This document shows positions 10,873 through 52,759 of a stretch of 64,000 nt of DNA, piece by piece (the first letter of the stretch is position 1; every line of letters starts with the position of its first letter). The stretch lies in assembly GCF_000710345.2 (NCBI RefSeq), contig NZ_JHEL01000015.1, positions 1,364,001 through 1,428,000 of the forward strand, written 5' to 3'. The DNA is from Curtobacterium sp. S6. Its GTDB lineage: Bacteria; Actinomycetota; Actinomycetes; Actinomycetales; Micrococcaceae. The position numbers and the translations under genes are program-made. The notes below the pieces were generated by a model. The model made no database searches. It was not told the DNA's origin and saw only the letters and a program-made list of their open reading frames with translations.

Positions 10873-11730
10873 TCAGTCGACGATGGTCCGGAGGATCCGC
10901 GCCGCGCCGTCGTCATACACCGACTCGGTGACCTCGGTCGCGACGGAAATGACCTCCTCCGGGGCCTGCCCCATGGCGACGCCGCGGGCGGCCCACTGCA
11001 ACATCTCGACGTCGTTGTGTCCGTCGCCCATCGCGACGGTGTGGGCGGGATCCACGCCCAGGTGGCGTCGGATCAGTTCCAGGGCCGATGCCTTCGAGAC
11101 GCCGCTCGCGGCGATATCCAGCCACGGCGTCCACCCCACCGCGTAGGTCACGCCGTGCAGACCGACCTCGTCGATGATCTCGGAGAAGGTCTCCAGGTCA
11201 ATCTCGGTCGAGAAGACCACCACGCGGACGGCCTCGAGATCCAGGAGCTCCTCGAAAGAGACCTGTTGGGCCTCCATCCCGAAGCTCCGGTCCTGGAATT
11301 GCGCGGTCGAGTAGAAGGATCCGTCCGCGGCCTCCAGGGCAAATTTGGCCCCGGGGAGGCGGTCGCCGAGGGCCGCGAGCGCCTTGGCCGGCTTGAAGGT
11401 GACGGCATCGACCACGCGGTATCCATCCCGGTACTCCGGGCCGATCTCCACCGTCACGCCGCCATTCGAGCTCACGGCATAACCGCGTTCGATTCCGGTC
11501 AGTTCCACGATGGGAAGCGTGGCGCCCTTCGAGCGACCGGTCGAGATCACGACGTGGTGGCCTTCCCGGGCGACGGCCTGAACGGCCGCCTTGACCTCTT
11601 CGCTCATGTGGCCGTCGTGGTCGACGAGAGTTCCGTCGACGTCCAGGGCCACCAGGTATTTCACCCCTACCTCTTTGTGCCAGCGCCCCTGCACCGGCGG
11701 GTGAATCGTTTCTTGTGTCATGAGTTCCAT
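10873..11730 (-). CDS. Cof-type HAD-superfamily hydrolase
   Basis: HAD phosphatase of about 285 residues of the Cof/type IIB group, which dephosphorylate sugar phosphates or similar metabolites. Motif I is LVALDVDGTLVDHDG and motif II lies in HVVISTGRS. The C-terminal motif AMGDGHNDVEML supplies the metal-binding acidic residues. The cap domain sits between motifs II and III. The start is uncertain between ATG 11730 and ATG 11721; a longer open frame to 11838 lacks support. A second Cof-type protein is encoded at 35390. Confidence 0.85.
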   Translation of the reverse strand: MELMTQETIHPPVQGRWHKEVGVKYLVALDVDGTLVDHDGHMSEEVKAAVQAVAREGHHVVISTGRSKGATLPIVELTGIERGYAVSSNGGVTVEIGPEYRDGYRVVDAVTFKPAKALAALGDRLPGAKFALEAADGSFYSTAQFQDRSFGMEAQQVSFEELLDLEAVRVVVFSTEIDLETFSEIIDEVGLHGVTYAVGWTPWLDIAASGVSKASALELIRRHLGVDPAHTVAMGDGHNDVEMLQWAARGVAMGQAPEEVISVATEVTESVYDDGAARILRTIVD

Positions 11731-43729: not shown

Positions 43730-45406
43730 ATGACCCAGGACACGGCCGGTGCGGCCCGTCAGAGAACCACACATGCGGTGGGACGATCGGCGATGCTCGT
43801 CCAATGCCCCGACATCGGCGATGTCCTGGCCTTGCACGCGGCGTTACTCAAGGCGCCCCTGCCGAACCAGCTCGAGCTCATCCCGGCCGCGACGACCGTC
43901 CTGGTCCGCTTCAGATCCCGCCTGACGCGGCGGGCGGCCCATGAGGCCGCGGAGGCCCTTCGCACGCTGCGCGGGGAGGCCGACGCCGCGACCGAATCCG
44001 GCACCGTGGAGATCCCCGTCCTGTACCGGGGCGAAGACCTCGAGGACGTCGCCGAGCATCTGGGCATTACCCCCGAGGCGGTCATCGACCGGCACGCCCA
44101 CCAGGAGTGGACGGCCGCTTTTTCCGGGTTCTCCCCCGGGTTCGCGTACCTCGTGCCGGCGGACGCCCGCCCCGAAGCGTCGCTGACCGTTCCCCGGCGG
44201 GCGAGCCCTCGCACCAAGGTTCCGGCGGGGTCCGTGGCCTTGGCCGGTGACTTCTCGGCGGTCTACCCCAGCGATTCTCCCGGCGGTTGGCAGCTGATCG
44301 GCACCACCGATACCCCCGTTTGGGACCTCGACCGCGAGGTTCCCGCCATCATCACGCCCGGGACACACGTCCGCTTCTCGCCCACGCGCGAAACCGTGGA
44401 ATTACAAGAATCCCGACCCGCCGCGCCGCCCGAACCCGGCGAGGACGCGGCCTTGCGCATCGACGCTCCGGGCCTCTCGACCATCGTCCAGGACGCGGGG
44501 CGAAGCGGCCACATCGACTGGGGCGTCAGCCCGTCCGGGTGGGCCGACCCGGAGGCCGCGCGCTCCGCCAATCGTCTGGTGGGCAACGAGGCCGCCGCGA
44601 GCGTCCTCGAGAACACCGCGGGCGGTCTGGCCCTGACCGCGCTGAAGGACACCGTGCTCGCCGTGACCGGGGCCCGCGCCGAGGTCAGCGTCGCGGGCGA
44701 GACCGCGCGCCGCATCCCGAACGACCGGCCCTTCGCGATGCTGGCCGGGGAACGCCTCTCGATCGGCCCAACCTCCCGGGGTCTCCGGGTGTACGTGGCT
44801 GCGCGCGGCGGATTCGAGGTGGCCCCGGTGCTCGGCAGCGCGGCCACGGACACCCTTGCCCGCCTCGGGCCGCCCTCGTTGACCCGCGGCAGCGCGGTGC
44901 GCCTCGGACCACAACCGCACCACGCCGTGGTGCCGGAGCTTCCGTCCGTGCCACTGCCCGAGACGGAGGCCGTGAACGACATCCCGGTTTCTCCCGGCCC
45001 ACGTTCCGGCTGGTTCACCCCGGAATCCCTCGACGCGATGGCAGGCTTCACCTGGCAGGTCACCCAGGAGAGCAACCGCGTCGGCGTCCGGCTCGCGCCG
45101 CGGGACGATTCCGAGGAGGAATCGCCCCTCATCCGGACCCAAGAGGCCCAGGACCGGGAGTTACCCAGCGAGGGCATCGTCGCCGGGTCGATCCAGGTTC
45201 CGCCCAACGGAAACCCGGTGATTTTCATGGCCGATCATCCCGTCACCGGCGGATATCCCGTGATCGGCGTCGTGGAACCCGAGCATCTGCGCCTGCTGGC
45301 CCAGGCGCCACCGGGGACCGCGATCCGCCTGCTCCTCGACAGCCCAGAGTCCCCCGCCGGACAACACACGACCACCACGGAGAACACCACATGCGCAAAG
45401 TCCTGA
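43730..45406 (+). CDS. Fused PxpB-PxpC (5-oxoprolinase subunit / KipI-KipA-like)
   Basis: Protein of 558 residues combining both halves normally made separately. Residues about 15-210 are the KipI/PxpB domain (FSGFSPGFAYLVPADARPEASLTVPRRASPRTKVPAGSVALAG). About 240-535 are the KipA/PxpC biotin-dependent carboxyltransferase-like domain (LSTIVQDAGRSGHIDWGVSPSGWADPEAARSANRLVGN and QESNRVGVRL). With PxpA such proteins hydrolyse 5-oxoproline (pyroglutamate) to glutamate using ATP. A PxpA/YcsF gene is not in the window. It overlaps the biotin carboxylase gene by 16 bases, so the two are coupled. ATG 43730 has GGAG upstream. Confidence 0.85.
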   Translation: MTQDTAGAARQRTTHAVGRSAMLVQCPDIGDVLALHAALLKAPLPNQLELIPAATTVLVRFRSRLTRRAAHEAAEALRTLRGEADAATESGTVEIPVLYRGEDLEDVAEHLGITPEAVIDRHAHQEWTAAFSGFSPGFAYLVPADARPEASLTVPRRASPRTKVPAGSVALAGDFSAVYPSDSPGGWQLIGTTDTPVWDLDREVPAIITPGTHVRFSPTRETVELQESRPAAPPEPGEDAALRIDAPGLSTIVQDAGRSGHIDWGVSPSGWADPEAARSANRLVGNEAAASVLENTAGGLALTALKDTVLAVTGARAEVSVAGETARRIPNDRPFAMLAGERLSIGPTSRGLRVYVAARGGFEVAPVLGSAATDTLARLGPPSLTRGSAVRLGPQPHHAVVPELPSVPLPETEAVNDIPVSPGPRSGWFTPESLDAMAGFTWQVTQESNRVGVRLAPRDDSEEESPLIRTQEAQDRELPSEGIVAGSIQVPPNGNPVIFMADHPVTGGYPVIGVVEPEHLRLLAQAPPGTAIRLLLDSPESPAGQHTTTTENTTCAKS

Positions 45407-47199
45407 TCGCCAACCGTTCGGAGATCGCCGTCCGCGTGATCCACGCCTGCGCGGAACGTGGAATCGGCACCGTCGCCGTCTACGCCGATTCCGACGTCGA
45501 TTCCCTCCACGTGCACCTCGCCGACGAGGCATACGCCCTGGAAGGCAACTCCCCCGCGGAGACTTACCTGAACATCGACAAGCTCCTGGAGATCGCCCGA
45601 CGCTCCGGTGCGACGGACGTGCACCCCGGGTACGGGTTCCTGGCGGAGTCGGCGGATTTCGCCAGGGCAGTGACCGAGGCCGGCCTGACGTGGATCGGCC
45701 CGTCGCCGGAGACCATCGAGGCCTTGGGCGACAAGATTCAGGCCCGCGCCATCGCTACGGCCGCCGGTGCCCCGCTCGCGCCCGGCACGGATGGCCCTCT
45801 GGAAGACGCCGGCCAGGCCCGGGACTTCGCCGAGGAGCACGGCCTGCCGATCATCATCAAGGCCGCCCACGGCGGAGGCGGGCGCGGAATGCGCGTGGTT
45901 CGGGACCTCGACGAGGTCGAGTCCGCCTTCGAGGCCGCCGCCCGTGAAGCCAAGGGGGCCTTCGGTCGCAGCGAGTGCTTCGTCGAGCGCTTCCTCGAGC
46001 GCCCGCGCCACGTGGAGGCTCAGGTCATCGCGGACTCGCACGGCGGTGTCGCGGTGATCGGCACGCGCGATTGCTCTTTGCAGCGCCGCAATCAGAAGCT
46101 CGTCGAGGAATCCCCCGCTCCGTTTCTGACCGATGACCAGCTCCGCCACATCGAGGAAGCCTCGGGCGCGATCTTCCGGGAGGCCGGGTACGTCAACGCC
46201 GGGACCGTCGAGTTCCTGGTGGGATCGGACGGCCTGATCTCCTTCCTGGAGGTCAACACCCGCATCCAGGTCGAGCACCCCGTCACGGAGGAAACCTTCG
46301 GTGTGGACCTCGTGGGCCTTCAGCTCGACGTCGCCGCCGGTGAGAAACTCCCGCTGGAAAGCCCGCTTCGTCCACATGGACACTCGATCGAATTCCGCAT
46401 CAACGCCGAGGATCCGGGGCGTGGTTTCCTGCCCGCCGGTGGGTCCGTGAAGACGCTGACGGTGCCGAGCGGGCCCGGCATCCGGTGGGATGCGGGCGTG
46501 GTCGCGGGTTCCCCGGTGGCCGGTGACTTCGATTCCCTGCTCGCCAAGCTCATCGTGACCGGGCCGACCCGCGAGGCCGCCCTGCGGCGCGCGCGCCGGG
46601 CTCTGGCGGAAATGACCCTGACCGGCGTCGCCACCACCCTGCCGTTCCACCGCGCCGTCCTGGAGAACCCAGACTTCACGGGAGATCCCTTCCGCGTGTA
46701 CACCACGTGGATCGAAGATGTTCTGACGCCTTCTTTAGAGGCCGACGGCGGTTATCGCGCCCCCGAATACGCGGACCGCACGCTCTTCGGCGAGCCCGGA
46801 GGCGAGGCGGAAGGTTCCGTGACGGCCGGGGTCGAGGTCGAGGGACGCCTGACCAAGGTGCGTTTCCCTGCCGACGCGTTGGCCGCCATCGGTGCGGGCC
46901 TGGCTCGCGGTCTCGGCGGCGTGGCGTTCTCCGGTGAGGCTGCGGCGTCGCAGGGTTCGACTGAGGAGTCATCGGGCGAGGTCCAGCTCACGGCACCGTT
47001 GAACGGCTCGCTCGTCCGTTGGGTCACCGAGGACGGCGCGGACGTGGAGCAGGGCGAGGTCGTGGCCGTGTTGGAGGCCATGAAGACCGAAATGCCCCTG
47101 GAGGCCGACGCTGCCGGAGTGCTGCGCCGGGGCGACGTCGAGCCAGGCCAGAAGCTCACCGCCGGGCAGTCGCTGGGCCGGATCGAGCCGGCGAGCTAA
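45391..47199 (+). CDS. Biotin carboxylase with C-terminal biotin carrier domain
   Basis: Protein of 602 residues: an acetyl/propionyl-CoA carboxylase alpha-type chain. The ATP-grasp biotin carboxylase domain (1-445) begins MRKVLIANRSEIAVRVI and contains HGGGGRGMR, CSLQRRNQKLVEE and FLEVNTRIQVEHPVTE. A linker leads to the carrier domain, whose biotinylated Lys565 is in EAMKTEM. It carboxylates biotin with bicarbonate and ATP and hands CO2 to a carboxyltransferase. The coupled PxpC-like domain upstream is annotated as biotin-dependent carboxyltransferase-like, so the pair may work together. The last 38 bases coincide with the left copy of an 84-bp direct repeat bounding an inserted island. Confidence 0.9.
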   Translation: MRKVLIANRSEIAVRVIHACAERGIGTVAVYADSDVDSLHVHLADEAYALEGNSPAETYLNIDKLLEIARRSGATDVHPGYGFLAESADFARAVTEAGLTWIGPSPETIEALGDKIQARAIATAAGAPLAPGTDGPLEDAGQARDFAEEHGLPIIIKAAHGGGGRGMRVVRDLDEVESAFEAAAREAKGAFGRSECFVERFLERPRHVEAQVIADSHGGVAVIGTRDCSLQRRNQKLVEESPAPFLTDDQLRHIEEASGAIFREAGYVNAGTVEFLVGSDGLISFLEVNTRIQVEHPVTEETFGVDLVGLQLDVAAGEKLPLESPLRPHGHSIEFRINAEDPGRGFLPAGGSVKTLTVPSGPGIRWDAGVVAGSPVAGDFDSLLAKLIVTGPTREAALRRARRALAEMTLTGVATTLPFHRAVLENPDFTGDPFRVYTTWIEDVLTPSLEADGGYRAPEYADRTLFGEPGGEAEGSVTAGVEVEGRLTKVRFPADALAAIGAGLARGLGGVAFSGEAAASQGSTEESSGEVQLTAPLNGSLVRWVTEDGADVEQGEVVAVLEAMKTEMPLEADAAGVLRRGDVEPGQKLTAGQSLGRIEPAS

Positions 47200-47245
47200 C
47201 GGGCGCGGGCTAATCCACGTCCGCGGGCTTTCACCGATCACAACG
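47162..47245. repeat. Left copy of the 84-bp direct repeat (island boundary)
   Basis: Covers the last 38 bases of the carboxylase gene plus 46 bases after its stop. It matches 51062-51145 at 81 of 84 positions with no gap (offset exactly 3900). Confidence 0.92.
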
Positions 47246-47396
47246 GGGTTGATGCAAGAATTCGTGACGTTCGAGGTATCGCACTGCGACCGCACGTGAG
47301 ACGCGCTGGGCCTACGCGTCCCCAGCCATCCGGGCGGATGCACATGATCGGCTAGCCAGAGAGTTCGTCAGGACACGGAGGATGAGGGAGGCAGGG

Positions 47397-48695
47397 ATGG
47401 GCGCTTCGGTAGGGCAGACTTCGGGCCCAGATCCTTCATCAGCCCGTGAGAAACGCGACGGGCTTCCTACACAATTTAAGGTCGTCTTAGCAGGAGAGTC
47501 CTTATCTCTCCTCGGTGCCCAGATATCGACGGTGATGATTCCCTTGATCGCCGTTCTGGCGTTACATGCGGACGAATTAATTCTCGGTATACTTAGCGCA
47601 ATTTCATGGTTTCCTATTGTAATCTTCGGACTTTTTGCAGGTACGATAATCGATAGATCCAGTCGCTGGCTGATTATGGCAATCTGCAACATTGTCCGAG
47701 CAGCGTTAATTTCTGTGATTCCGATACTGGCAGTGAGCAACACACTGAATTTGAGTGCACTACTTCTCGTGGCCTTTGGTGTTGGTATATGCAATGTATT
47801 TTTCGATATTGCATATCAGACGTATGTCCCCGAGTTGGTCGCGGCCGACGCGCTCGGTAAGGCAAACAGCGGTCTAGAGTTCTTTCGCTCAGCGGCTCAG
47901 CTCATCGGCCCACTCATGGGCGGACTTCTTGCGACTATTTACCGCCCCGAATTTGTAGTGTCAATTACGTCAATCACGTTCCTTATCGCATTTTCAGCAT
48001 TATTGGTTTTGCCGTCCCGATTCCGAGTGCGGCCGGTCAACTCCGATTCGATGATCGGACACAAACGAATCTCATTCATCACGGAGCTGCGTACGGGCCT
48101 ATCGCTCGTATGGAAGTCGTCGCAGATTCGTCTTGTCGTGCTCGCCGGGGCGATGGTAAATATCTTTGCCGCAGGCGTCAGCGCTCTTTTCGTTCTGTTT
48201 GTCACGCGCTCCCTTGGGCTCGATTCTTCGGTTTTCGGAATAACCGTCGCGGTCGCGGGCATAGGCGCTTTGGTCGGCGCTCTTACGTTTCGTTGCTGGG
48301 CCAATTTTTTCCATGAAGGAACCTGCGTTGCCGTTGGTCTCTTGAGCACGGGACTCGGAACCGTACTGGTGGCTCTTGCCGTCTTCTCCAACCGTCCGAT
48401 GGTGTGTCTCACCGTCGGCCAATTATTCGTTGGCTACGGCTCTCCCGTCATGAACATCTCCCTGGTGACGCTACGCCAGCGCCTCACCCCGCTCGCGCTT
48501 CTCGGCCGGGTGAACGCGAGCGCTCGTGTCGCCATCATGAGCAGCCTGCCGCTGGGTGCACTGCTCGTCTCGGGTCTTGCAGAGGCGACGTCCACAACGA
48601 CGGCGATCTGGGTATCTGCTGTCGGAGAATTGGCAGTGTTGCTTATTCTCGGCCCTTTCCTGCTTCGGATCAAGGCAAACGAACCCACTAGCTAG
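47397..48695 (+). CDS. MFS drug-type exporter (MefA-like), island gene
   Basis: Major facilitator of 432 residues with about 12 helices, similar in pattern to macrolide/multidrug exporters of the MFS_3 type: ESLSLLGAQISTVMIPLIAVLAL at helix 1, and the TIIDRSSRWLIMAICNIVRA loop between helices 2 and 3. The start is taken at ATG 47397 because GGGAGGCAGGG stands before it; an ATG at 47382 is also in frame. Base and codon use are AT-richer than the neighbours, pointing to acquisition by transfer. The substrate is unknown; export of an antibiotic or of a peptide made by the island is possible. Confidence 0.83.
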   Translation: MGASVGQTSGPDPSSAREKRDGLPTQFKVVLAGESLSLLGAQISTVMIPLIAVLALHADELILGILSAISWFPIVIFGLFAGTIIDRSSRWLIMAICNIVRAALISVIPILAVSNTLNLSALLLVAFGVGICNVFFDIAYQTYVPELVAADALGKANSGLEFFRSAAQLIGPLMGGLLATIYRPEFVVSITSITFLIAFSALLVLPSRFRVRPVNSDSMIGHKRISFITELRTGLSLVWKSSQIRLVVLAGAMVNIFAAGVSALFVLFVTRSLGLDSSVFGITVAVAGIGALVGALTFRCWANFFHEGTCVAVGLLSTGLGTVLVALAVFSNRPMVCLTVGQLFVGYGSPVMNISLVTLRQRLTPLALLGRVNASARVAIMSSLPLGALLVSGLAEATSTTTAIWVSAVGELAVLLILGPFLLRIKANEPTS

Positions 48696-49191
48696 CCCTG
48701 AGATGCTCCGCCAGTGGGTTGAGACAAGGACACGTGATACTCGATGTACCACGCTGTGACTGCAGGCGACTCGGCAACTGCTTCCGGCTCCACCAGCGTC
48801 AACCAACATAACCGGATCCATCCCCGGTACGGATGCCACATCCGCCCTACCGAGGTTATGGTCACGGCCATAAACTACCCCCACCCCAATTGGGCCATCC
48901 GCGACGGCCCAGACCCCTCCTACGTAACGTGGCCGAAAACTCTCTCCATCGCCGTATTGTCACCCGCAGCCCCGACGTGACCCATTGACTCGGGGATGTC
49001 GACAGCACAGAGATGCTCCAGCACGCCCACGGCGACCCAACGAAGACAGTCCACGCAGAGAAAGGCCAACAGCGCCCCTCTTGTGGAGTTTAATTCAGAT
49101 CTGTATTATCTCCTTTGGCGGTCTGGCCCCGAGATCGCCATCCTCTGGTTGACAGTGCGCAATGAAGCACACGATCCATTGGAAGGAAGAC
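48696..49191. other. Noncoding or decayed stretch within the island
   Basis: Nearly 500 bases without a supportable gene on either strand. Short open frames exist (for example 48744-48980) but lack ribosome sites and protein-like composition. It probably contains decayed sequence plus the promoter for the gene at 49192. Confidence 0.45.
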
Positions 49192-49569
49192 ATGACACTT
49201 TCGCTCAATCCGGCGCGGGCAATCACTAGCCATGGACCATTCGCCCTCACCTCAGAGAAGTCTAATCTCGCCATAACGGCACCATATTCCCAATTAGCAC
49301 AGGTAGCGGATCTACTTCATTGTTGGCCATCCGAAACGAACCATGAATTAAATGGCTTAAGCGACACAGTCACCTATCGGGGTGTTCTATCGCCTACAGC
49401 GATCTCACCATCCTCATCAAAAGTCAGACAGATGCAGCATTTGGCGCACAGACACAATGGCTTGACCAAACTCTTCGGAGACTGGTTATTGGGCGAGTAC
49501 GGCCACGCTTCCGTTCCAACATACCCATCGAGCTACCTCGTACTGGCTGGCTGGACTTTAGAACATTGA
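49192..49569 (+). CDS. Hypothetical island protein of 125 residues
   Basis: Open frame starting at ATG 49192, five bases after a strong GGAAGGAAG ribosome site (an ATG at 49162 has none). The protein is soluble-looking, rich in Ser, His and Leu, with MTLSLNPARAITSHGPFAL at its start and LFGDWLLGEYGHASVPTYPSS near its end. No signal peptide, membrane helix or known motif is seen. It ends 20 bases before the 51-residue frame that is coupled to the second MFS gene, suggesting a three-gene operon. It could be part of a small-molecule or peptide export cassette, but I do not recognise it. Confidence 0.5.
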   Translation: MTLSLNPARAITSHGPFALTSEKSNLAITAPYSQLAQVADLLHCWPSETNHELNGLSDTVTYRGVLSPTAISPSSSKVRQMQHLAHRHNGLTKLFGDWLLGEYGHASVPTYPSSYLVLAGWTLEH

Positions 49570-49589
49570 GCAAACATGGGTAACCTTAT

Positions 49590-49745
49590 GTGTCCACCAA
49601 AGTTTTTACTGTCGTTGTACGACAGTTATTCACCGAGGCCTCTTTTTCTCGTGATGCAGATTCGGAAATTAAAACATCAACGAACTCTTCACTATTTATC
49701 CTTAGAAAATTATTATCGGACGCGGAGTCAGAGGTAACAGCGTGA
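49590..49745 (+). CDS. 51-residue small protein coupled to the second MFS exporter
   Basis: GTG-initiated frame of 51 residues (VSTKVFTVVVRQLFTEASFS at its start, then a polar Asp/Ser/Thr-rich centre, ending LLSDAESEVTA). Its TGA overlaps the GTG start of the MFS gene as GTGA, the same coupling used throughout this genome, which supports real translation. No signal peptide, lipobox or multiple cysteines. It could be a regulator, a transporter accessory protein or a peptide precursor; the sequence does not decide. Confidence 0.45.
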   Translation: MSTKVFTVVVRQLFTEASFSRDADSEIKTSTNSSLFILRKLLSDAESEVTA

Positions 49746-51022
49746 GCGACGGTAATCCCCGACGAACTGCGGTGCTATGGGACCGCGACTTTACGCGACT
49801 ATGGTGTAGCGAGACCGTCTCGTTCTTCGGAAGCCAGTTAACCTTATTCGCCACGCCCATCGTGGCATTGGAATACCTCCATGCTTCTGCAACAGAGGTG
49901 GCCTGGATCAATACCGCAGCCGGTGTAGGCACATTGGTTTTTCTGGGCTTGCTCGGGCCGTGGACCGACAGAGGCCGACGGACCTGGTTCATGTCCACCC
50001 TGTCCCTGATACGCTCACTCGTACTTACGGGTGTGGCGCTGTTGCTGATGACGCAAAACCTGTCCCTTTATGTTCTGCTTATCGCAGTAGCCCTCGTCTC
50101 CGGGATGACCGGCCTCTACGACAGCGCCTTCTCGGCTCTATTGCCCGGTATCGTCCACCGTTCGAAGCTCTCCGCCGCGAATACCTGGGTCGCGGGCATT
50201 CGCTCGGCCGGAGATATTGGCGCAGGCGCGGCGGCAGGAATCATTCTTCAAGTCCTCTCACCCGTCGCTCTATTTATTGCTGACGCCTTCACCTACGTTG
50301 CCTCCGCCATAGCGGTGTGGCGTATTCGTGAGCCGGCGCCCACCCCCATCGAACGGATCACCGTGGTTGGGTACGTCCGTTCCCTCGGCGTCGGGTTCCA
50401 ACAGCTTTACCGTCACCGCGTCATGTGGCCGGTTAACCTATCCATCGCCCATTTCAACCTCTTCACGTCCGCGATCCAAGCCGTATACGTCACGCACGCT
50501 CTCCGGTCCGGAGCTATGTCTCCGGTAGAGATTGGGGCCGCGGGTACCCTCGGGGGCACCATTGGGCTCCTTGCGACGAGCGTCGCACCGAGATTGTGGA
50601 GCCTGTTCCGGCCGATCACCGTTCTCACGACTACATTTACCCTGCCTGCTCTCGCAGGTTTAGGCATGCTCTTCGTCGCGCCTCGGGAACCCCTTCTCAA
50701 CGTCGCGCTCCTCGGCCTCTCCCTCGGCTTTTGGGCAGCCTGCGTCATGGTCAACATGACGGGTACGGAAACCCTCAAACAGGTTCTGGTCCCCGAGCGA
50801 AACCTCGGTAGCTTTTCCTCAGCTAGCCGGATCCTTACTTGGGGCATCGACCCGGCAGGGGCCGCACTGGCCGGCGTCTTGGCGCTCTACCTGCCCACAG
50901 GGCCTGTCCTTGCAGTGGCCGCCATCGGTGTCGCCACGTCCGCGGCGTGGGTGCTAACAGCCTCGCCGGTTCGGGAACTACCCCGTCTACAAGACATCAC
51001 TGCACCAGACCATCGCCCCTGA
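49742..51022 (+). CDS. MFS exporter, second island copy
   Basis: Major facilitator of 426 residues with about 12 helices: RDFTRLWCSETVSFFGSQLTLFATPIVAL at helix 1, then the GPWTDRGRRTWFMSTLSLIRS loop. It resembles the enterobactin/macrolide exporter-like MFS_3 group, as does the other island MFS, but the two are not close copies. The GTG start overlaps the small upstream frame (GTGA). The next 39 bases lead straight into the right repeat. Substrate unknown. Confidence 0.83.
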   Translation: MSDGNPRRTAVLWDRDFTRLWCSETVSFFGSQLTLFATPIVALEYLHASATEVAWINTAAGVGTLVFLGLLGPWTDRGRRTWFMSTLSLIRSLVLTGVALLLMTQNLSLYVLLIAVALVSGMTGLYDSAFSALLPGIVHRSKLSAANTWVAGIRSAGDIGAGAAAGIILQVLSPVALFIADAFTYVASAIAVWRIREPAPTPIERITVVGYVRSLGVGFQQLYRHRVMWPVNLSIAHFNLFTSAIQAVYVTHALRSGAMSPVEIGAAGTLGGTIGLLATSVAPRLWSLFRPITVLTTTFTLPALAGLGMLFVAPREPLLNVALLGLSLGFWAACVMVNMTGTETLKQVLVPERNLGSFSSASRILTWGIDPAGAALAGVLALYLPTGPVLAVAAIGVATSAAWVLTASPVRELPRLQDITAPDHRP

Positions 51023-51061
51023 CCAGGATGACGAATGCGCCTGCAGTCCACGCTCGGACAA

Positions 51062-51145
51062 CCGGGCAGTCGCTGGGCCGGATCGAGCCGGCGAGCTAAC
51101 GGGCGCGGGCTAATCCGCGTCCGCGGGATTTCATCGATCACAACG
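51062..51145. repeat. Right copy of the 84-bp direct repeat (island boundary)
   Basis: Duplicate of the carboxylase gene end (81 of 84 identical to 47162-47245). The reading frame GQSLGRIEPAS-stop is preserved but not attached to the gene. It is followed without gap by a strong terminator, the arrangement expected just after the intact carboxylase gene. Confidence 0.92.
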
Positions 51146-51186
51146 CAAAGCGTCGGCAGATCCGCCAAGGATCTACCGACGCTTTG
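51146..51186. terminator. Strong bidirectional terminator beyond the island
   Basis: An 18-bp stem (CAAAGCGTCGGCAGATCC at 51146-51163, complement at 51169-51186) with one C-A mismatch and a GCCAA loop. It sits where the carboxylase transcript would have ended before insertion, and also faces the leftward small gene at 51205. Confidence 0.85.
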
Positions 51187-51204: not shown

Positions 51205-51396
51205 CTATGATCCTCGGGATCGGCGCACCCGGACCAGGCCGGTGGCCGAAGCCACCGCGATCCCCCCGAGAACCCACAGCAACCACGATTGCACGGGTGA
51301 TGAACCATCGAACACGGCCGGCATGAGAAGAATCAACAACGCGGCGGAGACCGCAAGGCCCACGATGAAACCGACCAATGTGTAGTTACTCTTCAC
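51205..51396 (-). CDS. Small two-helix membrane protein, function unknown
   Basis: About 63 residues with two hydrophobic helices (TLVGFIVGLAVSAALLILLM and SWLLWVLGGIAVASATGLV) joined by a short loop, and a basic tail RVRRSRGS. The start is taken at GTG 51396 with AGGGG upstream; an open frame to 51483 adds a non-hydrophobic stretch. Just downstream of the Nramp-like gene on the same strand; a conserved-looking accessory protein of unknown role. Confidence 0.5.
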   Translation of the reverse strand: MKSNYTLVGFIVGLAVSAALLILLMPAVFDGSSPVQSWLLWVLGGIAVASATGLVRVRRSRGS

Positions 51397-51445: not shown

Positions 51446-52759
51446 TTAGCCGTTCCAGAGCTTCGCGAGGCCCTGAATCGCATTCACCCCGAAGTACAGC
51501 GTCAGCAACCAGACGAAGACGCCGGCGACAATCAGCCACTTCGGGTACTTGTACCCCTGCAGAAGATCCCGGCGGAAAATCGCGACGATCAGAATCACGG
51601 TGAAGCCCAACGGCAGGATCAGGCCGTTGATGGTTCCCGCGATGACCAGCAGCGTCGCCGGGGGCTTGCCCAGGCCCATGAACACGATGGTCGACAGCAC
51701 GATCATGATGATCGTCAGCAGATTGCGGATCCAGGTTTTGGTGTTGCGGGTGGTCATGAACGAGACCGAGGTATACGCGGCACCGATCACCGAGGAGATC
51801 GACGCGGCCCACAGGATCACGCCGAACAGTCGCAAGCCGATGTCTCCCGCCGCGTGCTGGAACGCCTCCGCGGCCAGGTTCGAGCTCGTCAGGGCCACAC
51901 CCCCGGCGACGACGCCCAGGATCGCCAGGAACAACAGGTACCGCATCACGCCGGTCACCACGATCGAGGTGATCGAGGCCCCGGAAATGGACTTGACGTC
52001 GTCGACCCCGGAGACGCCCGCGTCGATCATGCGGTGCGCGCCGGCGTAGGTGATGTACCCGCCGACGGTTCCGCCGATGAGCGTGGTCACGACCACCATG
52101 TCCACGTTGTCGGGGAGGACGGTCTGGCGGAAGGCGTCCATCACCGGAGGCCCGGAGACCACCGCGACGTACCCGGTAATCAGGATCATGAGGACACCGA
52201 GAACCACCACGATCTTGTCCAGGGCCACGCCGGCCTTCTTGGACAGGAAGACCAAGATCGCCAGCACGGAGGTCAGGATCCCGCCCCATTTGGCGTCCAG
52301 ACCGGTCATGGCGTTGATTCCCAGGCCTCCGCCGGCCACGTTGCCGACGTTGAAGACGAATCCACCGAACACCACAAAGATGCCCAACACCACGCCGACG
52401 CCGGGCAGGATCTTATTGCCGAGCTCCCCGGCGCGCAGGCCACTGATGCCGATCACGCGCCACACGTTCAGCTGGACCGCGACGTCGACGACGATCGACA
52501 AGAAGATCGCGAAGGCGAAGGCCGCACCCATCTGCACGGTAAACGTGGCGGTCTGGGTGATGAATCCCGGGCCAATGGCCGAGGTGGCCATGAGGAAAAG
52601 CGCGCCCAGCAGGATCGATCGTTTCGACTCGACCTTGGGCAACTTCTGCTTGGTGACGACGTCACCCATCGCGGTCTGCGGCCGCGAGCCGTCGGCCTCG
52701 GAGGCCGCGTCGCTCCAGGGCACCCTGGGGTTTTCCAGGGAATCGTTGTGCTGTGTCAT
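51446..52759 (-). CDS. Nramp-related transporter (YcsG-like) without the DPGN motif
   Basis: Membrane protein of 437 residues with about 11 helices and the Nramp/LeuT fold outline. Helix 1 reads SAIGPGFITQTATFTVQMG: GPGF is kept but the metal-binding DPGN is absent, so it probably does not move divalent metals. Relatives such as B. subtilis YcsG lie with ycsF and kipIA (pxp) genes, suggesting transport of 5-oxoproline or a similar acid. Here the pxpBC-biotin carboxylase genes lie on the other side of the 3.9-kb island, in convergent orientation. Cytosolic N-terminus of about 45 residues. Confidence 0.78.
   Translation of the reverse strand: MTQHNDSLENPRVPWSDAASEADGSRPQTAMGDVVTKQKLPKVESKRSILLGALFLMATSAIGPGFITQTATFTVQMGAAFAFAIFLSIVVDVAVQLNVWRVIGISGLRAGELGNKILPGVGVVLGIFVVFGGFVFNVGNVAGGGLGINAMTGLDAKWGGILTSVLAILVFLSKKAGVALDKIVVVLGVLMILITGYVAVVSGPPVMDAFRQTVLPDNVDMVVVTTLIGGTVGGYITYAGAHRMIDAGVSGVDDVKSISGASITSIVVTGVMRYLLFLAILGVVAGGVALTSSNLAAEAFQHAAGDIGLRLFGVILWAASISSVIGAAYTSVSFMTTRNTKTWIRNLLTIIMIVLSTIVFMGLGKPPATLLVIAGTINGLILPLGFTVILIVAIFRRDLLQGYKYPKWLIVAGVFVWLLTLYFGVNAIQGLAKLWNG

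Follow-up and report, generated by a model that had tools for sequence, protein, structure and literature searches.

The biotin carboxylase locus and its insert

The window analysed here (64,000 nucleotides of a contig of Curtobacterium sp. S6, to which all positions refer) carries, directly behind an intact biotin carboxylase/BCCP gene (BC), a short island of foreign DNA that lies between two copies of an 84-bp direct repeat and holds two intact MFS exporter genes with gene remnants between them. The features of the locus, with the evidence for each in brackets, are as follows.

45391..47199, + strand: BC, the target gene, intact (Pfam; genus relatives at E<=1e-100)
47162..47245, + strand: left repeat copy, attL-like, made up of the final 38 bp of BC and the 46 bp behind it (repeat comparison)
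47246..51061, + strand: unique island DNA, 3816 bp (composition; search of genus genomes)
47382..48695, + strand: MFS1, an intact 437-aa MFS_1/MFS_3 exporter (Pfam; NCBIfam matches below cut-off)
48696..49191, + strand: filler without a recognisable gene (six-frame Pfam)
49192..49440, + strand: N-terminal ThiF-like E1 remnant, ~80 aa (alignment against shuffles)
49431..49568, + strand: C-terminal SBP_5-like remnant, 36-44 aa, in another frame than the E1 remnant (tblastn; shuffles)
49590..49745, + strand: 51-aa open reading frame (ORF) overlapping the start of MFS2, at the place of the JmjC_2 gene of relatives (unlike JmjC_2)
49742..51022, + strand: MFS2, an intact 426-aa exporter resembling the terminal gene of a RiPP-like operon (identity to relatives; RiPP, ribosomally synthesized and post-translationally modified peptide)
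51062..51145, + strand: right repeat copy, attR-like (repeat comparison)
51100..51123, + strand: imperfect palindrome in the right copy, a possible recombinase core site (geometry only)
51146..51186, + strand: strong hairpin, taken as the original BC transcript terminator (fold z -7.9)
51446..52759, - strand: NRAMP-family transporter gene, the convergent neighbour that marks the right flank (Pfam; adjoins BC in the five closest BC loci)

The repeat copies are identical at 81 of 84 positions at an offset of exactly 3900, a pairing that a preliminary description of this DNA had proposed and that the repeat comparison bears out, with exactly two copies in the organism's own genome at E<=0.001. 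The repeat also holds the sole exact direct repeat of at least 20 nt in the window (55 nt, 47162-47216), and no exact inverted repeat of that length occurs there. Thirty-eight of the 84 bp are the end of BC including its TAA stop codon (47197-47199) and 46 are intergenic; all three mismatches (47217, 47228 and 47234) fall 3' of the stop. The BC frame runs unbroken through the left copy, giving 602 aa with the Pfam domains Biotin_carb_N, CPSase_L_D2, Biotin_carb_C and Biotin_lipoyl, so that the claim of an insertion at the 3' end of a gene left intact holds. The duplication likewise stands, while the size of 3.9 kb first given for the island needs trimming: the unique insert is 3816 bp, and the 38 genic bp of the repeat belong to its target.

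Directly 3' of the right copy lies the hairpin at 51146-51186, with a long stem and a fold that 0 of 200 shuffles equal in stability (z = -7.9), which agrees with the strong terminator reported earlier at this spot. Since the right copy abuts this hairpin, the insert lies between the BC stop codon and the terminator, with the hairpin now moved to the right of the insert. The fold of 47196-47330, 3' of the left copy, is no more stable than that of its shuffles (z +0.7), and a scan for consensus terminators found none behind the left copy, a weak negative given that its demand for a T-run made the scan miss the hairpin at 51146 too.

Relatives of BC occur at E<=1e-100 in 35 of 35 genomes of the genus, the organism's own included, some of these rows being paralogues. 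The five BC genes closest to that of the window (from the species G013, G023, G003, G006 and G008, at 89, 81, 81, 78 and 74% identity, respectively) are each followed after ~100-190 bp by the convergent NRAMP gene, which is to say by an empty site; the sample for this comparison comprises other species of the genus and no strains of the window's own. In G013 a hairpin-like sequence begins 17 bp past the BC stop, as judged by eye, a layout like that of the right copy and hairpin of the window. Among 25 BC loci of the genus, two of them with a more distant BC (G019 and G025), tblastn found no match (E<=1e-5) to MFS1, MFS2 or a 135-aa ORF of the island in the ~6-7 kb downstream of BC. The island DNA as a whole is unmatched in 33 of the 34 other genus genomes, and its sole match is a 160-bp piece at 70% in G001.

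Composition points the same way. In 400-bp windows the GC content of the island is 0.47-0.63, against 0.66-0.75 for the carboxylase genes on its left; the NRAMP side, at 0.59-0.68, is also lower, and the contrast is clear on the left flank only. GC at third codon positions is 0.59 for MFS1 and 0.69 for MFS2, compared with 0.85-0.90 for BC, CT and the NRAMP gene. The empty loci, the composition and the lack of genus matches establish that the island is an acquired insertion, not yet ameliorated. Nothing was found in support of a stable ancestral gene order or of an assembly artefact, to which we assign practically no probability: the empty site that was to be sought is present in all five closest BC loci and related genomes do not share the order of the window, the composition is foreign, and the three mismatches together with 3.8 kb of unique DNA between the copies, within a 1.59-Mb contig, argue against misassembly.

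Exporters and operon remnants

MFS2 provides the key to the cargo. No orthologue was found at E<=1e-60 in any of 395 other genomes sampled from the order, and the best identity of MFS1 among 396 genomes of the order is 37%. A scan of genome contigs, which reaches close relatives only, identified relatives of MFS2 in Arthrobacter sp. MA-N2 (L079, 66% identity) and Microbacterium sp. lyk4-40-TSB-66 (L078, 60%). There the MFS gene is the last of an operon that encodes, in order, a short precursor-like peptide, a ThiF-family E1, an SBP_bac_5-like protein (scoring below the Pfam cut-off), a JmjC_2 protein and the exporter. A third operon of the same order, with an MFS protein 40% identical to MFS2, was found in one of 295 family genomes (G447, locus L106) by a search with a two-row alignment of the SBP-like protein; a three-row alignment matched 0 of 386 genomes order-wide and 0 of 384 phylum-wide, in searches run without a positive control. 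These RiPP-like operons, from three actinobacteria, form a small and selected set, two having been found with the MFS2 query and one with the SBP query.

L078:4529-9230: RiPP-like operon
L079:4542-9275: RiPP-like operon
L106:5974-10809: RiPP-like operon

Short peptides upstream of E1 are present at all three loci (METTSFEIEETSIEIDTLVTHRS, METTSFEIEEKAIDIDTLIVHRT and MAVDIEFEIEENETDGAEMIVHRC) and carry FEIEE...HR; they were chosen by eye and local alignment, without a shuffle test. With phmmer, the E1 of G447 is closest to MccB (9.5e-14), followed by PaaA (2e-9), and the top match of the L078 E1 is yeast ubiquitin E1 (2.3e-15), ahead of other E1s, PaaA (3.9e-12) and MccB (5.4e-12). A precursor, an E1, a tailoring gene of oxygenase type and an exporter stand together in one operon at L078, L079 and L106, as judged by sequence, and such an operon would presumably have made a peptide product. 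In Arthrobacter sp. MA-N2 the E1 gene (L079:4673-5627) spans two reading frames, which could reflect a pseudogene or a sequencing error.

The space between MFS1 and MFS2 retains pieces of this operon. An E1 remnant with its own ATG, preceded by ggaaggaag, continues in frame to 49569, and its portion at 49246-49440 scores 70 against the Arthrobacter E1 and 55 against the Microbacterium E1. Neither score was reached by any of 1000 shuffled proteins for either query, while shuffles of the DNA in two-base blocks reached the Arthrobacter score in 0 of 100 cases and the Microbacterium score in 1 of 100. Structure prediction for this remnant gave no usable model (mean pLDDT, the predicted local distance difference test score, 40.5). 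The end of the SBP-like gene follows in another frame (tblastn 4e-9 and 3e-6; 0 of 100 DNA shuffles as good with any of the three SBP queries, of which those from Arthrobacter and G447 align further upstream). The translated 135-aa ORF itself was tried as an SBP and set aside: it showed no similarity, with 236 and 169 of 1000 shuffles doing as well, and its frame is not that of the SBP remnant. At the place of the JmjC_2 gene stands the 51-aa ORF, for which 596 and 759 of 1000 shuffles score as well against two JmjC proteins; no JmjC trace in the island rises above shuffles (72, 15 and 30 of 100), and no precursor remnant was found there. Translated in all six frames, 48680-49200 matches no Pfam family even at E=1.

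The order E1, SBP, gap, MFS is that of the intact operon, and the island is best read, on alignment and gene order, as a gutted operon whose exporter was spared. With only ~80 N-terminal residues of the E1 left and no precursor found, the island is itself not a ThiF-type RiPP cluster. The small exporter cargo described at first is real insofar as two intact MFS genes are concerned, but the remnants of a ThiF-type RiPP-like operon beside them had been missed. MFS1 is absent from all three operon loci and was dropped as a candidate part of the operon. Drug-resistance names for MFS1 and MFS2 were likewise dropped, every NCBIfam match being far below its cut-off and giving no substrate. No member of the MFS2 or SBP-like family was confirmed in IMG/VR, and a Streptomyces plasmid with two nearby MFS matches was discarded, its context being one of partition and primase genes with no link to the operon.

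As far as the available text of PMC12250964 goes, the clusters for pantocin A (PaaPABC) and microcin C resemble the intact relatives in combining a precursor-like peptide, a ThiF-like E1, an oxygenase-type gene and an exporter. The relatives differ from pantocin in having an MFS protein instead of the EamA exporter PaaC, JmjC_2 instead of PaaB, and an extra SBP_5-like protein, and the window island differs from both clusters in that its biosynthetic genes are destroyed. PaaC is described as conferring resistance (PMC12250964), and the available part of PMC12710340 describes JmjC proteins to which RRE domains are fused and whose bacterial homologues occur in RiPP-like contexts. The combination of ThiF, JmjC, SBP and MFS genes has no description in the literature searched, which was mostly without subscription journals.

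Both exporters are co-oriented with BC and no terminator was found between, so they are probably transcribed by read-through from the carboxylase gene; the position of the island could in this way supply a host promoter to its genes. MFS1 and MFS2, both intact, are plausibly expressed and useful, and may give export or resistance.

Proposed integration and decay, and alternatives

The gene-end duplication, the restored gene, the displaced terminator and the right-copy palindrome are consistent with site-specific integration and a later loss of the recombinase. That palindrome, CGGGCGCGG-GCTAAT-CCGCGTCCG, pairs 8 of 9 arm positions around a 6-bp centre, a geometry that we take to be of the tyrosine-recombinase core type. 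We envisage that a larger element, carrying a ThiF-type RiPP-like operon together with MFS1, would have recombined into the 3' end of BC via a site-specific recombinase. Integration would have restored the end of BC in what is now the left copy and moved the old gene end and its terminator to the right. Later internal deletions may then have cost the element its recombinase and its JmjC gene along with the greater part of the E1 and SBP genes, leaving the two exporters intact. With moderate confidence we regard the island as a decayed, integrase-less integrative element resembling a cis-mobilizable element (CIME). As the available text of PMC7563491 defines them, CIMEs are decayed derivatives that have kept their attachment (att) sites and lost the genes for recombination. 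The anatomy of the island would place it among them: att-like gene-end repeats, an empty site in relatives, and no recombinase or transfer genes found.

The locus at L106 offers a parallel. The operon of G447 is flanked by two 63-bp repeats (94%) that lie 7.3 kb apart (island L106:3689-11071), and a tRNA-Ser gene (11048-11136, minus strand) shares its 3' end with the right-hand repeat. A TGCCTA-type motif, TGCCTAATCTGTGCCTA, is repeated near both ends of this island, which also holds a truncated ORF covering positions 111-180 of the 182-position DUF3631 profile. No integrase was found on its contig, the only two PF00589 matches of the genome being on other contigs. A second operon of this type therefore also sits in a decayed island at a gene's 3' end without a detected integrase.

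Several observations weigh against a decayed integrative element. No recombinase was found within the island, in agreement with the preliminary description: of three ORFs scanned with Pfam two matched only MFS families and the 135-aa ORF nothing, and six-frame translation of 48680-49200 added none, in scans that left out 175 bp at the edges (136 bp before MFS1 and 39 bp after MFS2). Beyond the repeats, the outer 100 bp at the two ends of the island share no terminal inverted or direct repeat of at least 8 nt. The palindrome of the left copy has one extra mismatch and is weaker than that of the right, and as RNA the 84 bp are no more stable than their shuffles (z -1.0 for the right copy, -0.2 for the left). 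The 84 bp and flanks are unmatched in phage and plasmid collections, and a 27-nt core of the repeat has no exact match in IMG/VR. PF07508, whose control matched 3 of 14 genomes, has no match in the organism's genome (resolvase-type families were not searched). PF00589 has four, of which three share the contig of the island at distances above 800 kb and the fourth is on a different contig; the one integrase of this genome that could be assigned to an element has a different target, namely the start of an SRAP gene, and the surroundings of the other three matches were scanned for repeats only. MFS1 is also absent from all three operon loci, which weighs against the supposition above that it arrived together with the operon. 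Similarly, the 17-kb loci L078 and L079 contain no direct repeat of at least 28 nt and no tRNA gene, shorter repeats there looking like chance, and the E1 remnant is not seen with the G447 E1 as query (68 of 100 DNA shuffles as good).

The same scans, with the same 175 bp at the edges left out, found no transfer genes inside the island. No relic of an integrase or relaxase was seen, while the losses in the E1, SBP and JmjC regions are visible. An autonomous island driven by its own integrase was rejected, no integrase gene having been found in the parts scanned. Also rejected were a transposon or insertion sequence (no transposase in the parts scanned, no exact terminal inverted repeat of at least 8 nt in the outer 100 bp), a tRNA target (there is no tRNA gene in the whole window) and a phage or plasmid origin of the 84 bp, which match nothing in those collections.

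The lack of a recombinase and of end repeats would be expected if a fragment with a BC 3' end and, behind it, the exporters had been imported by homologous recombination within BC on the left, with an illegitimate second joint falling by chance 38 bp before the last base of BC on the right and so creating the duplication; the three mismatches would then be differences between donor and recipient. Homology-facilitated illegitimate recombination has been described for bacteria (PMC3240628, available text). What keeps this rival alive is that the 3' side of BC varies across the genus, with different short cargo in sister species (a 269-aa ORF in G012, G014 and G018, another ORF in G002 and G029, extra ORFs in G031) and no gene-end repeats seen, as if the spot gained DNA in other ways. 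Scanned for exact repeats, the loci of G031, G029, G028 and G007 showed none at the gene end, the other cargo-bearing loci having been compared with empty loci only. Such an import needs a donor with exporters behind a nearly identical BC, which none of the 34 other genus genomes provides, and the related operon in L106 has att-like flanks. On balance we think import unlikely, though it deserves to be kept in mind.

Capture of the DNA at a staggered double-strand break by end joining, with fill-in producing the 84-bp target duplication, would account for the fact that only the target is duplicated and that the insert has no element-type ends. Eighty-four bp is long for a fill-in duplication of this kind, and the placement of the insert between stop codon and terminator would be a coincidence; we consider this route highly improbable. 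Slightly more improbable still is a minimal element that never had a recombinase and was moved in trans by one encoded elsewhere. The island contig of L106, also without an integrase match, would suit it, but decay in both islands (the E1 and SBP remnants here, the truncated DUF3631 there) explains the absence more simply, and none of the four PF00589 matches of the genome was recognised as using the BC site.

Comparison with known elements and variation at the site

A decayed integrative element at this location is in itself ordinary: insertion at the 3' ends of protein genes with long duplications, and remnants without an integrase, are both known. The preliminary description had called such a target unusual, which does not hold in view of the streptococcal targets and of PAISt at bacA (PMC4057263, PMC7563491 and PMC4701971, in the text available of each). 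Integrative elements of streptococci use rpsI, rpmG, fda, rplL, guaA and lysS (PMC7563491, PMC4701971), and housekeeping genes are the targets of 30 of 73 tyrosine integrases of streptococcal integrative and conjugative elements (ICEs; PMC4701971). The CIMEs of Streptococcus, which derive by decay from ICEs or integrative and mobilizable elements (IMEs), are like the island in carrying kilobase cargo (classically 1.2-13 kb) between att-type repeats, in lacking recombinase and transfer genes and in targeting the 3' end of a protein gene (PMC7563491, available part). The island differs in phylum and target gene and in that no parent ICE or IME is known here; the CIMEs counted in that source stand in tandem with another element, whereas the island stands alone (PMC7563491).

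PAISt of Streptomyces, as presented in the available text of PMC4057263, inserts into bacA at its 3' end and duplicates 141 bp. The two share an actinobacterial host, a protein-gene 3' end as target, a long gene-end duplication and a palindromic core, a putative one in the island, and islands related to PAISt that keep only an integrase remnant provide a further likeness; PAISt is unlike the island in its 674 kb, virulence cargo, 8-bp palindrome (TTCATGAA), bacA target and own integrase (PMC4057263).

The preliminary reading is partly supported and for the most part right, but the element type is already known; new here are the account of where the cargo came from and the few RiPP-like operons found. 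As we understand it, the island would illustrate how a foreign cluster wears down to its exporters while it sits harmlessly behind a metabolic gene and ahead of that gene's terminator. Its relatives direct attention to a rare operon of RiPP-like type; both the product of this operon and any resistance due to the MFS exporter are directly testable. It is tempting to speculate that an undescribed RiPP-like ThiF/SBP/JmjC/MFS system, known from the three loci above, travels between actinobacteria on small recombinase-less islands at gene 3' ends, represented here by an exporter-only immunity module that has lost its biosynthetic genes and borrows the carboxylase transcript, although we regard this as doubtful.

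The cargo behind BC in sister species (L111:369-1178, L110, L114, L112 and L071) is of several kinds. The 269-aa ORF (L111; G012) has a weak match to PD-T4-5/AbiD defence models, with HEPN_Swt1 just below cut-off. The ORF in G002 and G029 is presumably DUF3800-like, Pfam giving no match for that of G002, and a gene between BC and the NRAMP gene in sister species is one that we take to be GntR/FCD. In G031 (L070) a 43-bp exact direct repeat, with copies 651 bp apart, lies between BC and the NRAMP gene and encloses what looks to us like a toxin-antitoxin pair.

The element at the SRAP gene start (L119:2024-6630, corresponding to G000:C12:432023-436629) is a 4.6-kb integrative element with a 17-bp exact repeat that encodes a 407-aa integrase, a HipA_2-like kinase, a DUF3037 protein (PADLOC PDC-M66B match) and a 200-aa ORF. 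Finally, between the hairpin and the NRAMP gene of the window lies a hydrophobic ORF of 62 aa (51205-51393, - strand), for which the ~100-bp gap between BC and the NRAMP gene in G013 leaves no room.

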